From Gammaproteobacteria bacterium (GTDB lineage Bacteria > Pseudomonadota > Gammaproteobacteria > JAADHQ01), in assembly GCA_011052215.1 (NCBI GenBank), contig DRJK01000103.1:1-36655 (forward strand): a stretch of 36,655 nucleotides of DNA, read 5' to 3'. The translations under genes were made by a program, and so were the position numbers. Under the pieces are notes generated by a model. It was given only the letters and a program-made list of their open reading frames with translations. It did no database searches and was not told the origin of the DNA. Positions 2,933-36,645 of the stretch are shown piece by piece; position 1 is the first letter of the stretch, and the number at the start of each line of letters is the position of its first letter.

Positions 2933-3164
2933 TACTGCTGCCCCGTTAACTTTATGAAGCACATATCAATGTGAGGACATGGAATCGGCAAGCCTGATCA
3001 AGACCGTCTGCCGCACGGATGCGGCAGCCGAGCCGCCATGGATGGCATGTTTTGCGTGTCTTGATCAGGCTTGCCGGTTTCATGTCCGGATTGCGGGTTA
3101 GTCCAAAACGCACTTGCCGCTTACATTTCAACTACATTCGTCACGGGTTAACGTGACAACAGTG
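2933..3164 (+). mobile_element. MITE-like repeat, copy 2 (full length, 232 bp)
   Basis: The left end reads TACTGCTGCCCCGTTAAC and the right end GTTAACGTGACAACAGTG, an imperfect terminal inverted pair. The internal hairpin arms lie near 2978-3009 and 3055-3085 and enclose a GC-rich core with its own small stem, CTGCCGC/GCGGCAG. The 9-base flanks (acgcacttt on the left, aaatatgtt on the right) do not match, so no target duplication is visible. The copy supplies the first codons of a long alternative frame of the transferase gene on its left. The rest of the gap up to 3180 holds nothing else. Confidence 0.9.
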
Positions 3165-5879: not shown

Positions 5880-6111
5880 CACTGTTGTTCCGTTAACTTT
5901 ATGAAGCACATAACAATGTGAGGACATGAAATCGGTAAGCCATATCAAGACCGTCTGCCGAACGGATACGGCAGCCGGGCCGCCATGGATGGCATGTTTT
6001 GCGTGTCTTGATTTGGTTTGCCGGTTTCATGTCCGGGTTGCGGGTTGGCCCAAAATGCACTTGCCGTTTACGTTTCAACTATATTCGTCATGGGTTAACG
6101 GGACAACAGTG
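5880..6111 (+). mobile_element. MITE-like repeat, copy 3 (full length, 232 bp)
   Basis: It begins CACTGTTGTTCCGTTAAC and ends GTTAACGGGACAACAGTG. It has the same internal hairpin organisation as copy 2, with the core in the common orientation; the arms (near 5925-5954 and 6003-6031) carry several mismatches. The flanking nonamers (atgacgggg, tatcggtaa) do not match, so the target duplication is lost or the copy was rearranged. It separates msrA from the convergent PilZ gene. A frame of 64 codons running through it is judged non-coding. Confidence 0.9.
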
Positions 6112-8963: not shown

Positions 8964-9021
8964 CACTGTTGTCCCGTTAACTTTTCAACTACATTCGTCA
9001 TGGGTTAACGGCACAGCAATA
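8964..9021 (+). mobile_element. MITE-like repeat, copy 4 (58-bp deleted derivative)
   Basis: Only the two ends remain. The left terminus CACTGTTGTCCCGTTAAC plus two bases is joined directly to the last 38 or so bases of the right end (TTCAACTACATTCGTCATGG then GTTAACGGCACAGCAATA). About 175 bp, including the whole hairpin module, is missing. Flanking nonamers TTGGCTTAT (8955-8963) and TTGGTTTAT (9022-9030) agree at 8 of 9 positions, so the deletion either preceded transposition or occurred inside an inserted copy without touching the ends. Confidence 0.88.
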
Positions 9022-21650: not shown

Positions 21651-21883
21651 CACTGCTGTCCCGTTAACTTTAATGAAGCGCATAACAATGCGAGGGCATG
21701 GAATCGGCAAGCCTGATCAAGACCGTCTGTCGCATGGATGCGGCAGCCGAGCCGCCATGGATGGCCTGTTTTGCGTGTCTTGATTTGGCTTGCCGATTCC
21801 GTGTCCGGATTGCGGGTTAGCCCAAAACGCACTTGCCGCTTACATTTCAATTATATTCGTTACATGTTAACGGGACAGTCGTG
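21651..21883 (+). mobile_element. MITE-like repeat, copy 5 (233 bp, perfect 9-bp duplication)
   Basis: It starts CACTGCTGTCCCGTTAAC; the right end, TGTTAACGGGACAGTCGTG, carries a small change. The identical nonamer TTATATTAT flanks both sides (21642-21650 and 21884-21892), a clean target-site duplication. The internal hairpin (arms near 21697-21724 and 21776-21803) is in the common orientation, with changes in the right arm only (TTGATTTGGC instead of TTGATCAGGC). It lies in the 500-base gap between the FHA and FKBP genes. Confidence 0.92.
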
Positions 21884-23531: not shown

Positions 23532-23763
23532 TACTGCAGTCCCGTTAACTTTATGAAGCACATATCAAAGTGAGGACATGGAACCGGCAAGCCGGATAAA
23601 GACCGTCTGCCGCACGGATGCGGCAGCCGAGCCGCCATGGATGGCATCTTTTGCGTATCTTGATACGGTCTGCCGGTTTCATATCCGTATTGCGGGTTAG
23701 CTAAAAACGTATTTGCCGTTTACGTTTAATCCGGATTCATTACAGGTTAACGGCACAGCACTG
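23532..23763 (+). mobile_element. MITE-like repeat, copy 6 (232 bp)
   Basis: It starts TACTGCAGTCCCGTTAAC and ends GTTAACGGCACAGCACTG. The flanking nonamers ACATATTAT (23523-23531) and ACATACTAT (23764-23772) agree at 8 of 9. The hairpin arms (near 23578-23605 and 23656-23684) have diverged more than in other copies. The right end overlaps the 5' part of the long open frame of the MOSC gene, whose real start is downstream of the element. Confidence 0.9.
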
Positions 23764-26326: not shown

Positions 26327-26558
26327 CATTGCTGTCCCGTTAACTTTATGAAGCACATAACAATGTGAGGACATGAAACCGGCAAGCCTGATCAAGACAC
26401 GCAAAACATGCCGTCCATGGCGGCTCGGCTGCCGCGTCCGTGCGGCAGACGGTCTTGATCAGGCTTACCGATTCCATGTCCGGATTGCGGGTTGGCCCGA
26501 AACACACTTGCCGCTTACATTTCAGCCACATTCGTCATGGGTTAACGGCACAACAGTG
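26327..26558 (+). mobile_element. MITE-like repeat, copy 7 (232 bp, inverted hairpin module)
   Basis: The ends are CATTGCTGTCCCGTTAAC and GTTAACGGCACAACAGTG, in plus orientation by their adjoining sequences (TTTATGAAGCACATAACAAT on the left, CTTGCCGCTTACATTTCAGC on the right). The inner module reads GACACGCAAAACATGCC...GGCAGACGGTC, the reverse complement of the module in copies 2, 3, 5, 6 and 9. The arms are swapped too (ATGAAACCGG now on the left). The nonamers ATTATAAAT and ATTATAAAC agree at 8 of 9. Confidence 0.92.
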
Positions 26559-29041: not shown

Positions 29042-29148
29042 CCGGCCGCCCCCGCATTTCTACCACGCGGCAGACGGTCTTGATCAGGCTTACCGGTTCC
29101 ATGTCCTCACATTGTTATGTGCCCCATAACGTTAACGGGGCAACAGTG
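29042..29148 (-). mobile_element. MITE-like repeat, copy 8 (one half only)
   Basis: The right-hand part reads GCGGCAGACGGTCTTGATC, then CAGGCTTACCGG...CCATGTCC and CACATTGTTATGTG, ending GTTAACGGGGCAACAGTG. Read in reverse this is the left half of the family, so the copy is in minus orientation. Homology is clear from about 29066; the stretch from 29042 is weaker. The other half and any left target repeat are missing, consistent with deletion. The remaining bases to 29268 show nothing recognisable. Confidence 0.82.
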
Positions 29149-29801: not shown

Positions 29802-30039
29802 GATACACCTCCTTTGTTACGGCTTTAACAAAAGTGCATCGGAACGATCAACAATGGTTCCAAATGTCGCCTGTCAAAGAGAGGCAATTACAACTCCCTT
29901 TAACAATATAAATATAGTTTACTGGCCAGATCATTTCAATGACTACGGTCAAGGCAGCTTCAGTATTATAAAATTTAATAGGCAGGGCAGAATGATAAAA
30001 ATATTTTATTGTTTAACAAGACTGCTTTTCATGATGTAT
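29802..30039. other. Promoter region of the small heat-shock gene
   Basis: AT-rich, non-coding. On the minus strand it carries TTGACA near 29872-29877 and the gene's ribosome site AAAGGAGGTG near the start codon. No CIRCE-type inverted repeat was seen, and I saw no sigma-32 -10 element. The last nine bases are the left target repeat of copy 9. Confidence 0.45.
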
Positions 30040-30276
30040 TACGGCTGTCCCGGTAACCTCATGAAGTGTATATAAATGTGAGGATATGAAACCGGTATGG
30101 CCAAATAAAGACCGTCTGCCGCACGGACGCGGCAGCCGAGCCGCCATGGAGGGCATGTTTTGCGCGTCCTGATTTGGCCATACCGGTTTCATATCCGGAT
30201 TGTTCTGTTTAGCTTAAAACGTACTTGCCGTTTTCGTATCGACTTGGATTTGTTAAAGGGAAGCGGCACAGCAATA
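30040..30276 (+). mobile_element. MITE-like repeat, copy 9 (237 bp, divergent, perfect duplication)
   Basis: The ends, TACGGCTGTCCCGGTAAC and GCGGCACAGCAATA, have drifted from the consensus, yet the nonamer ATGATGTAT is identical on both sides (30031-30039 and 30277-30285). The hairpin arms read CCGGTATGGCCAAATAAAGA (left) and TTTGGCCATACCGG (right). The bases differ from other copies in both arms but still pair, so the stem is maintained by paired changes. Confidence 0.88.
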
Positions 30277-30363
30277 ATGATGTATCAAGCATTCCTGTTA
30301 TCTTTCCGGTTCTGTGAGAAGGCAGGTTCAACGGGGTAAATTGCAATCATTGTTCAGAAAAAT

Positions 30364-35863: not shown

Positions 35864-36645
35864 TAGGGTCAGACTCGACATAATTGAGCAGGGATGATAG
35901 CCTGCTGTTTCACCGGAATAGATCGGAATAACAGGACATGGCAAGACTTCCCCGTATATATGTAAAAAACCAGCCGCAACACATTATCCAGCGGGGCAAT
36001 AACCGGGAACCGATTTTTGTAGATAAACAAGACTATTTGTTCTACTTGAAATGCCTTCAGGAAGCAGTAAAAAATCATGAGCTTCATGTACATGCCTATG
36101 TGTTAATGACTAACCATGTCCATCTACTGGCTTCTCCCCAGCAAGAGAGCAGCACAGGCAAGGTGATGCAATCAATTGGACGGCGGTATGTGCAATATTT
36201 TAACTACAGATACGATCGCACGGGAACGCTGTGGGAAGGTCGATACAAGTCTACACTCATTGATAGTGAGCAGTACTTACTGATCTGCATGCGCTATATT
36301 GAATTAAATCCAGTAAGAGCCAATATGGTGTCGCACCCAAAAGAGTATCGCTGGTCCAGTCATCGCATAAATGCATTGAGTGAGCCTGGTGAATGGATAA
36401 AACCACATATCGTCTATCGACGGCTTGGCAATGATATCGCGGAGAGAGAAAAGGCCTATCGCGCACTATTCCGGAATCATCTGCCTTTACGAGCTATCGA
36501 GGATATTCGAGAGGCAACAAACAAGGCCTGGGTATTGGGGCCGGATCGTTTTAAGAAAAAAATGGAAAGGCTGGCGGGCAGACGTTCAGCACCCTTGCCA
36601 AAGGGGAGGCCCAGGCAGGCATGAATTATATCGAGTCTGACCCTA
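35864..36645 (+). mobile_element. RAYT element bounded by 22-base inverted repeats
   Basis: TAGGGTCAGACTCGACATAA (start of 35864-35885) is the reverse complement, with one mismatch, of the 22 bases at 36624-36645. The right copy starts at the last base of the transposase stop codon. The bracketed 782-base unit contains only the transposase gene. Such TAGGGTCAGACTCGA-like ends are seen around RAYT genes in many gammaproteobacteria. No short REP-like dispersed copies of this end were seen elsewhere in the window. Confidence 0.82.
35938..36624 (+). CDS. REP-associated tyrosine transposase (RAYT, Y1_Tnp family)
   Basis: This 228-residue HUH-type single-strand transposase relates to IS200/IS605 TnpA. 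LPRIYVKNQPQHIIQRGNNR begins the Y1_Tnp domain; the metal-binding HUH motif is MTNHVHLLASP near residues 57-67. Further on are YVQYFNYRYDRTGTLWEGRY, with candidate nucleophilic tyrosines, and YIELNPVRANMVSHPKEYRW. The C-terminal basic tail (KKKMERLAGRRSAPLPKGRP) is typical of RAYTs and probably binds the flanking hairpin DNA. RAYTs usually act on nearby REP sequences rather than moving themselves. It appears intact and complete. Confidence 0.93.
   Translation: MARLPRIYVKNQPQHIIQRGNNREPIFVDKQDYLFYLKCLQEAVKNHELHVHAYVLMTNHVHLLASPQQESSTGKVMQSIGRRYVQYFNYRYDRTGTLWEGRYKSTLIDSEQYLLICMRYIELNPVRANMVSHPKEYRWSSHRINALSEPGEWIKPHIVYRRLGNDIAEREKAYRALFRNHLPLRAIEDIREATNKAWVLGPDRFKKKMERLAGRRSAPLPKGRPRQA

Follow-up and report, generated by a model that had tools for sequence, protein, structure and literature searches.

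The repeat at positions 30,040–30,276 of the window (the whole 36,655-nt stretch analysed here, from contig DRJK01000103.1 of the host genome) is a non-autonomous transposon of 232–237 bp with 18-nt imperfect inverted ends and a 9-bp target-site duplication. The middle of this MITE carries a Y-shaped structure, in which an outer stem of 26–31 bp closes two short hairpins with A-N-GGA loops. Among relatives in other genomes, both loops and a paired outer stem persist, whereas the stem sequence does not, and it is on the loop-bearing strand that pairing is preferentially maintained. From these sequence patterns we consider it probable (about 55%) that the element is an RNA scaffold that presents putative CsrA-type loops on a sequence-free stem and is spread here by the MITE. 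The loop-bearing strand would act as RNA, and the stem would be a sequence-free clamp that keeps the two loops close. The loops would bind CsrA/RsmA, a dimer that could take both, and the many copies might be dispersed CsrA sites or decoys. The RNA nature, the CsrA binding and the decoy role are proposed with falling certainty.

Nine copies were found in the window: six with both terminal repeats, a 58-bp derivative and two cut copies (Table 1). Copy 9 is short and non-coding and has the terminal inverted repeats and target-site duplication (9/9) of a MITE. The original prediction that both arms of copy 9 had changed while pairing was kept was confirmed, with the interval exact and 29/31 pairs Watson–Crick (94% complementarity). 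The stem is mismatched at pair 26 (A-G) and pair 28 (A-C). Folded as RNA, copy 9 gave z = −7.8 (plus strand) and z = −9.2 (minus strand). An empty site for copy 9 was sought by synteny in three congeners, and the search gave hairpin matches alone in G002, one weak match in G003 and nothing in G001. The flanks of the 58-bp derivative, TTGGCTTAT and TTGGTTTAT, resemble by eye a 9-bp duplication of its own; either its hairpin was lost in place or the hairpin is unneeded for insertion. An IS200-like Y1 transposase (PF01797, 51.7 bits) with inverted repeats (GGGTCAGACTCGA...) on its flanks lies at 35938–36624. It resembles the TIR-associated tyrosine transposases in the passages of PMC3733652 that describe them. 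A link between this transposase and the hairpin elements was rejected, as the 176 loci (931 kb) contained no homolog at E 1e-4.

Table 1. Positions of the MITE copies and of the parts of copy 9 in the window.
Feature	Positions	Strand	Basis
Copy 9, whole MITE, 237 bp	30040..30276	+	sequence, terminal repeats
Target-site duplication, left copy, ATGATGTAT	30031..30039	.	identical to 30277-30285
Target-site duplication, right copy, ATGATGTAT	30277..30285	.	identical to 30031-30039
Copy 9 left terminal inverted repeat	30040..30057	+	3/18 mismatches to consensus used
Copy 9 right terminal inverted repeat	30259..30276	-	6/18 mismatches to consensus used
Copy 9 outer stem, left arm	30082..30112	+	arm complementarity
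Copy 9 outer stem, right arm	30166..30196	+	29/31 pairs Watson-Crick
Copy 9 inner hairpin 1, loop ACGGAC (A-N-GGA)	30116..30135	+	sequence; structure and loop counts
Copy 9 inner hairpin 2, loop ATGGAG (A-N-GGA)	30143..30154	+	sequence; structure and loop counts
Copy, 232 bp	2933..3164	+	RF01731 match 43.8 bits (gathering 43) at 2968-3094
Copy, 232 bp	5880..6111	+	both terminal repeats
Copy, 233 bp, perfect 9-bp duplication	21651..21883	+	both terminal repeats
Copy, 232 bp, duplication 8/9	23532..23763	+	both terminal repeats
Copy, 232 bp, hairpin core inverted relative to own flanks	26327..26558	+	both terminal repeats
Copy truncated at contig end	1..153	-	
Half copy	29067..29148	-	
58-bp derivative, both terminal repeats, without hairpin	8964..9021	+	

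A search of the host genome (2.61 Mb, 183 contigs) for the core with at most 3 mismatches gave 144 matches, 64 forward and 80 reverse, and a reversed control pattern gave 0. The copies analysed are a sample of about 100 that were fetched from these 144 matches. The fetched stretches contained 105 core matches, one of which (window 28287) was false by eye, leaving 104 copies. The hairpin was complete in 93 of the 104, and alignment A1 comprised 92 rows, without L016, whose right arm is broken. Both ends were present with at most 5/18 mismatches in 70/104 copies. The length of these 70 was 231–236 bp in 67, with peaks at 232 bp (32 copies) and 235 bp (19). The 9-bp duplication matched at 8/9 positions or better in 34/70, compared with about 1.1% in the shuffled control, and it was perfect in 19/70; other duplication lengths gave counts of 0–2.

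The hairpin core was inverted relative to its flanks in 8/92 complete copies, which would be the expected outcome of recombination between the two arms. Inversion was flagged in 16/104 copies; the other 8 are truncated at contig ends, which makes the flag unreliable for them. In L016, inner hairpin 1 has ATCCGT in its loop, which is ACGGAT reverse-complemented, as though this hairpin alone had flipped. In L023 and L001, unique flanking DNA was seen by eye to be inversely duplicated past the MITE ends for about 20–45 nt on each side; these may be genuine palindromes or artefacts of the assembly. L116 (G206:C137), in a genome of another family, carries this MITE too, again with the same ends, which suggests horizontal transfer or contamination.

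The alignment of the 92 host hairpins showed that 97.1% of the arm cells were paired. Double-sided change was found at 17/31 stem pairs (132 cells), a level reached by 0/500 shuffles, and at most 24 doubly changed cells were obtained when the partner was slid by 1–3 columns. Related rows inflate the double-change counts, which the slid controls and the independent set of 49 loci described below answer in part. The 31 arm pairs of the 93 complete hairpins comprised 2563 Watson–Crick, 166 G-U, 31 A-C and 62 other cells. The arm lengths also changed together: the 17th pair was missing on both sides in 58/93 copies, present on both in 34/93 and one-sided in 1/93. One-sided variants persist, with pair 26 unpaired in 25/92 copies and pair 22 in 13/92. 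The RNAalifold consensus recovered the outer stem and missed, in the present register, both inner hairpins.

Copy 9 had been called divergent. Its right end departs from the consensus at 6/18 positions, and its arms are not one-off, since those of L027, the nearest to it, are equal at 57/62 letters and differ at only 5/62. The long-arm type to which copy 9 belongs was found in 34/93 copies, and A-G at pair 26 in 24/93, copy 9 among them. As the arm type is shared with other copies, the paired substitutions mark a lineage and not an event in copy 9. Since hairpins at orthologous loci of another genus are inherited or exchanged whole (see below), the paired differences of copy 9 would have come as one block with the arm type, not pair by pair.

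A covariance model (R1) was built from the host hairpins and applied at E ≤ 1e-3, with E-values that are rough. It matched 50/369 Gammaproteobacteria genomes, many of them with all 9/9 scored candidates. In these genomes the arms were wholly different between loci, even inside one genome (G180, G251 and G091), and the core around the two loops stayed. A pattern that fixed the core letters only found 101 stretches in the collection of named genomes. Among the 80 titles listed, all that named a group were gammaproteobacterial, and the hosts of the named loci include Marinobacter, Alteromonas, Halorhodospira, Thiohalomonas, Parahaliea and Shewanella. A plasmid collection searched with the 57-nt core gave no match.

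Of the 101 exact-core stretches, 89 had a flank of 70 nt or more on each side. Although the pattern ignored the arms, the core lay inside a stem in 89/89 of these loci (median 29 bp, range 15–52), and the median stem score was 25.4 vs. 3.4 with swapped partners. Alignment A2 contains 49 of the 65 non-redundant loci listed; 16 were omitted because of irregular or shifted arms or for brevity. This selection favours pairing; the stem lengths, the swap test and the G-U and A-C counts over the 89 loci include the omitted 16. In A2, 26/26 arm pairs were doubly changed (658 cells vs. a shuffle mean of 194), and all four Watson–Crick types occurred at most arm positions. The mean identity was 33% in the arms and 89% in the core, the latter partly fixed by the search pattern. 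The inner hairpins covaried too, at pairs 31–48 and 34–45, and the RNA fold of L222 was the model structure. Stems of 48–52 bp with at most 1 mismatch and unique sequence were seen in L187, L193, L196, L214 and L230, on metagenome-derived contigs (mostly Halorhodospira sp.); either they formed very recently or their pairing is unusually strong.

The original prediction had further suggested that the stem itself may matter, and it proposed a covariance model and a covariation test. The model was built and covariation proved strong over the 92 copies and the 49 other loci; together with the excess of G-U over A-C given below, this supports the suggestion. A predominance of one-sided changes without covariation, named there as the contrary outcome, was not observed, though one-sided variants exist.

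The non-Watson–Crick arm pairs of the 89 named loci were 107 G-U and 20 A-C (p = 1e-15). Counted by locus, the ratio was 48 vs. 7 (p = 1e-8), and 66 non-redundant named loci gave 79 G-U and 15 A-C. The genus of genome G275 showed the same skew, with 56 G-U and 11 A-C in 91 distinct elements (106 counted). In the 92 host rows the counts were 163 and 31, or 62 vs. 30 without the two commonest wobble pairs. Pairing of double-stranded DNA or copying between arms would give equal numbers of G-U and A-C, so the observed skew points to one functional strand, the one that bears the loops. Host variants present in at most 3 copies gave 13 G-U and 20 A-C. A-C is not rarer than G-U among these rare variants, so that single copies decay without visible selection. 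Taken together, the two results would mean that the loop-bearing strand is under selection in the spreading lineages and that single copies decay after insertion. In single-stranded DNA too, G-T is a better pair than A-C, and the loop strand in that form would give the same bias, which leaves RNA as the probable form. Replichore strand bias in two one-contig genomes, judged by eye only, looked mixed.

The genus of G275 allowed orthologous loci to be compared. The element was present in 13/15 of its genomes, with a maximum in G369, where 131 of 150 scored candidates matched, and the copies often occurred as inverted pairs about 280 bp apart. Repeats near these elements look like the SMAG repeats of Stenotrophomonas. 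Twenty orthologous locus pairs had both flanks of at least 200 nt and at least 80% identity. No double change was found in 14/20, which had 0–3 single changes and 0–2 core differences. The other 6/20 had 6–10 double changes and 5–16 core differences between flanks that were 81–95% identical; two of these six share locus L274, which leaves five independent cases. This group is too changed for stepwise drift at the rate of the 14 pairs, and thus whole hairpins, arms and core together, were exchanged. The exchange would be conversion from a paralog or loss followed by new insertion. The 18 single changes comprised 11 Watson–Crick/G-U, 4 Watson–Crick/A-C and 3 with another mismatch. In this genus, the hairpins are thus inherited or exchanged as whole units. 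Arm-to-arm correction, which the original prediction had offered as an alternative source of the paired changes, is not borne out as the main process, since most pairs had no more than a few single changes, the rest had whole-hairpin replacement, and isolated paired changes are few. A search for orthologs among the 101 named loci gave no clear pair in which the distances on the two sides were equal.

Both loops were A-N-GGA in 84/92 host copies and in 89/91 elements of the genus of G275, where N of loop 2 was free (T41, G34, A13, C3). Minor letters made up 1.4% and 0.8% at the A.GGA columns of the host copies vs. 8–10% in the arms and 5% in the linkers. GGA in hairpin loops, a feature of CsrA-binding RNAs, is therefore present. 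The CsrA SELEX consensus is RUACARGGAUGU, as given in the passage of the review PMC4347634 that reports it. The loop 2 consensus of the 49 named loci, GUACAGGGAUGU, part of which was fixed by the search pattern, fits this consensus. The ACA of the SELEX consensus was found in neither loop of the window copies, which have CCA or GCA instead, a point against strong CsrA binding in the host copies. The host genome contains CsrA genes at 91.5 and 38.1 bits. CsrA was found in 45/50 element-bearing genomes vs. 267/319 others (p = 0.30), and in complete genomes only, in 41/42 vs. 238/271 (p = 0.06), so no clear link was seen in these comparisons. G197 (98% complete) has the element, and CsrA was not found in it.

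Gene context was classified with simple longest-ORF calling for 61 named loci, 28/89 near contig edges being omitted. Of these loci, 24 have both neighbours on the opposite strand (antisense) and 15 have both on the same strand (sense); convergent genes flank another 16, and divergent genes the remaining 6. The elements thus keep to gene ends and are seldom between divergent genes. No sense bias next to genes was seen in the tandem contexts, and a plain 3′UTR role therefore does not fit.

Three other readings were weighed against the RNA scaffold with CsrA-type loops. The conserved unit may be an RNA with another job, such as an RNase III substrate, a terminator, a protector of mRNA ends or an attenuator of the REP/MITE kind, with GGA loops that do not serve CsrA; we consider this unlikely. 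The position of the elements near gene ends agrees with such a job, as do the inverted pairs about 280 bp apart, which recall REP dimers and the TIR repeats of S. maltophilia in the relevant passages of PMC3733652. A plain stem would not need two conserved A-N-GGA loops with a free N, however, inspection by eye showed no U-run following the stem, and sense bias is lacking. That copy 9 reflects chance or a single conversion event is highly improbable. Its divergent right end speaks for such an event, and the near-identical arm type in other copies, together with the covariation in both alignments, has already refuted it.

The element may also be a palindrome at the DNA level, with a stem kept by template switching, one arm being copied from the other, or used as a cruciform or single strand for transposition and with incidental loops, which we judge to be rather improbable. 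Several results agree with this. Eight rare compensated pairs occur in 6 host copies, and 6 of them are single-copy pair states (L031, L043, L063, L064). An isolated paired change from T-A to G-C was found at one orthologous pair, the inverted cores are what arm recombination would give, and sense bias is lacking. Template switching and cruciforms treat the two strands alike, yet G-U far exceeded A-C (107:20 and 56:11). The core is conserved at loci whose arms are not, and the 58-bp derivative keeps both ends without a hairpin, so that the hairpin may be unneeded for insertion.

A tentative and somewhat doubtful proposal, drawn from sequence comparison, is that Gammaproteobacteria genomes may hold dispersed, partly mobile CsrA-binding RNA modules, in some genomes more than 100, whose sequence-free stems are exchanged as whole hairpins. 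If this is true, the modules would together set the level of free CsrA, and a MITE could expand the system in one lineage. The elements represent a very abundant class of palindromic repeats that retain pairing but not sequence. They would connect a little-understood Rfam motif with mobile DNA, and the CsrA-type loops would give a testable reason for the persistence of the repeats. Paired change can come from whole-hairpin exchange and not from pair-by-pair compensation, which matters where covariation is taken as proof of selection.

The element resembles the TwoAYGGAY motif (RF01731), as both have an outer stem around two hairpins with AYGGAY-type loops. TwoAYGGAY is listed for human gut, Gammaproteobacteria and Clostridiales in the part of PMC2864571 that names it, and CsrA binding had already been proposed for it on motif grounds, as stated in PMC4333381 where the motif is discussed. 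The ACGGAC loop of copy 9 fits AYGGAY and ATGGAG departs at the last base; nearly all copies have A-N-GGA with N = C, G or T. Copy 9 scored 36.6, below the RF01731 gathering score of 43. The host genome gave 49 matches to RF01731 at E ≤ 1e-3, 5 of them above the gathering cut-off, and only 2 of 20 related loci compared with Rfam matched it at E ≤ 0.05. RF01731 also found elements in G028 and G012; these palindromes have a different build and were kept out of the counts of the hairpin family. These high-copy palindromes (L103, L107, L108, L110, L111, L113 and L114) have loops that are mostly GGA on the matched strand, and RF01731 may gather several repeat families. In the openly licensed literature, TwoAYGGAY was not found as a high-copy repeat or MITE cargo, nor was the combination of a TwoAYGGAY-like core, high copy number, MITE and CsrA.

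REPs of the GTAG and CGTC families and the TIR repeats of TIRYTs are likewise high-copy intergenic palindromes that form inverted dimers and lie near gene ends, according to the sections of PMC3733652 on these repeats. REPs are given there as 20–40 bp, and CGTC REPs as having stems of 8–9 bp that start with AT and a CCA tail. Inner hairpin 1 of the element follows CGTC and its stem does not start with AT, which sets it apart from CGTC REPs. The self-complementary "1152 TIR" repeats of S. maltophilia, compared by their description in PMC3733652, may be the copies in the genus of G275 and thus an earlier sighting of a subset.

The CsrA-sequestering RNAs of the CsrB/RsmY/RsmZ type also have GGA motifs in hairpin loops. 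These RNAs are single-locus and have many sites each, whereas the hairpin element has two sites per copy on a long stem and its copies are scattered. Like bacterial MITEs, the element is short, contains no gene and has inverted ends and a target duplication. Unlike them, its structured core also occurs outside the MITE, in genomes where most of the loci inspected by eye are without these ends.
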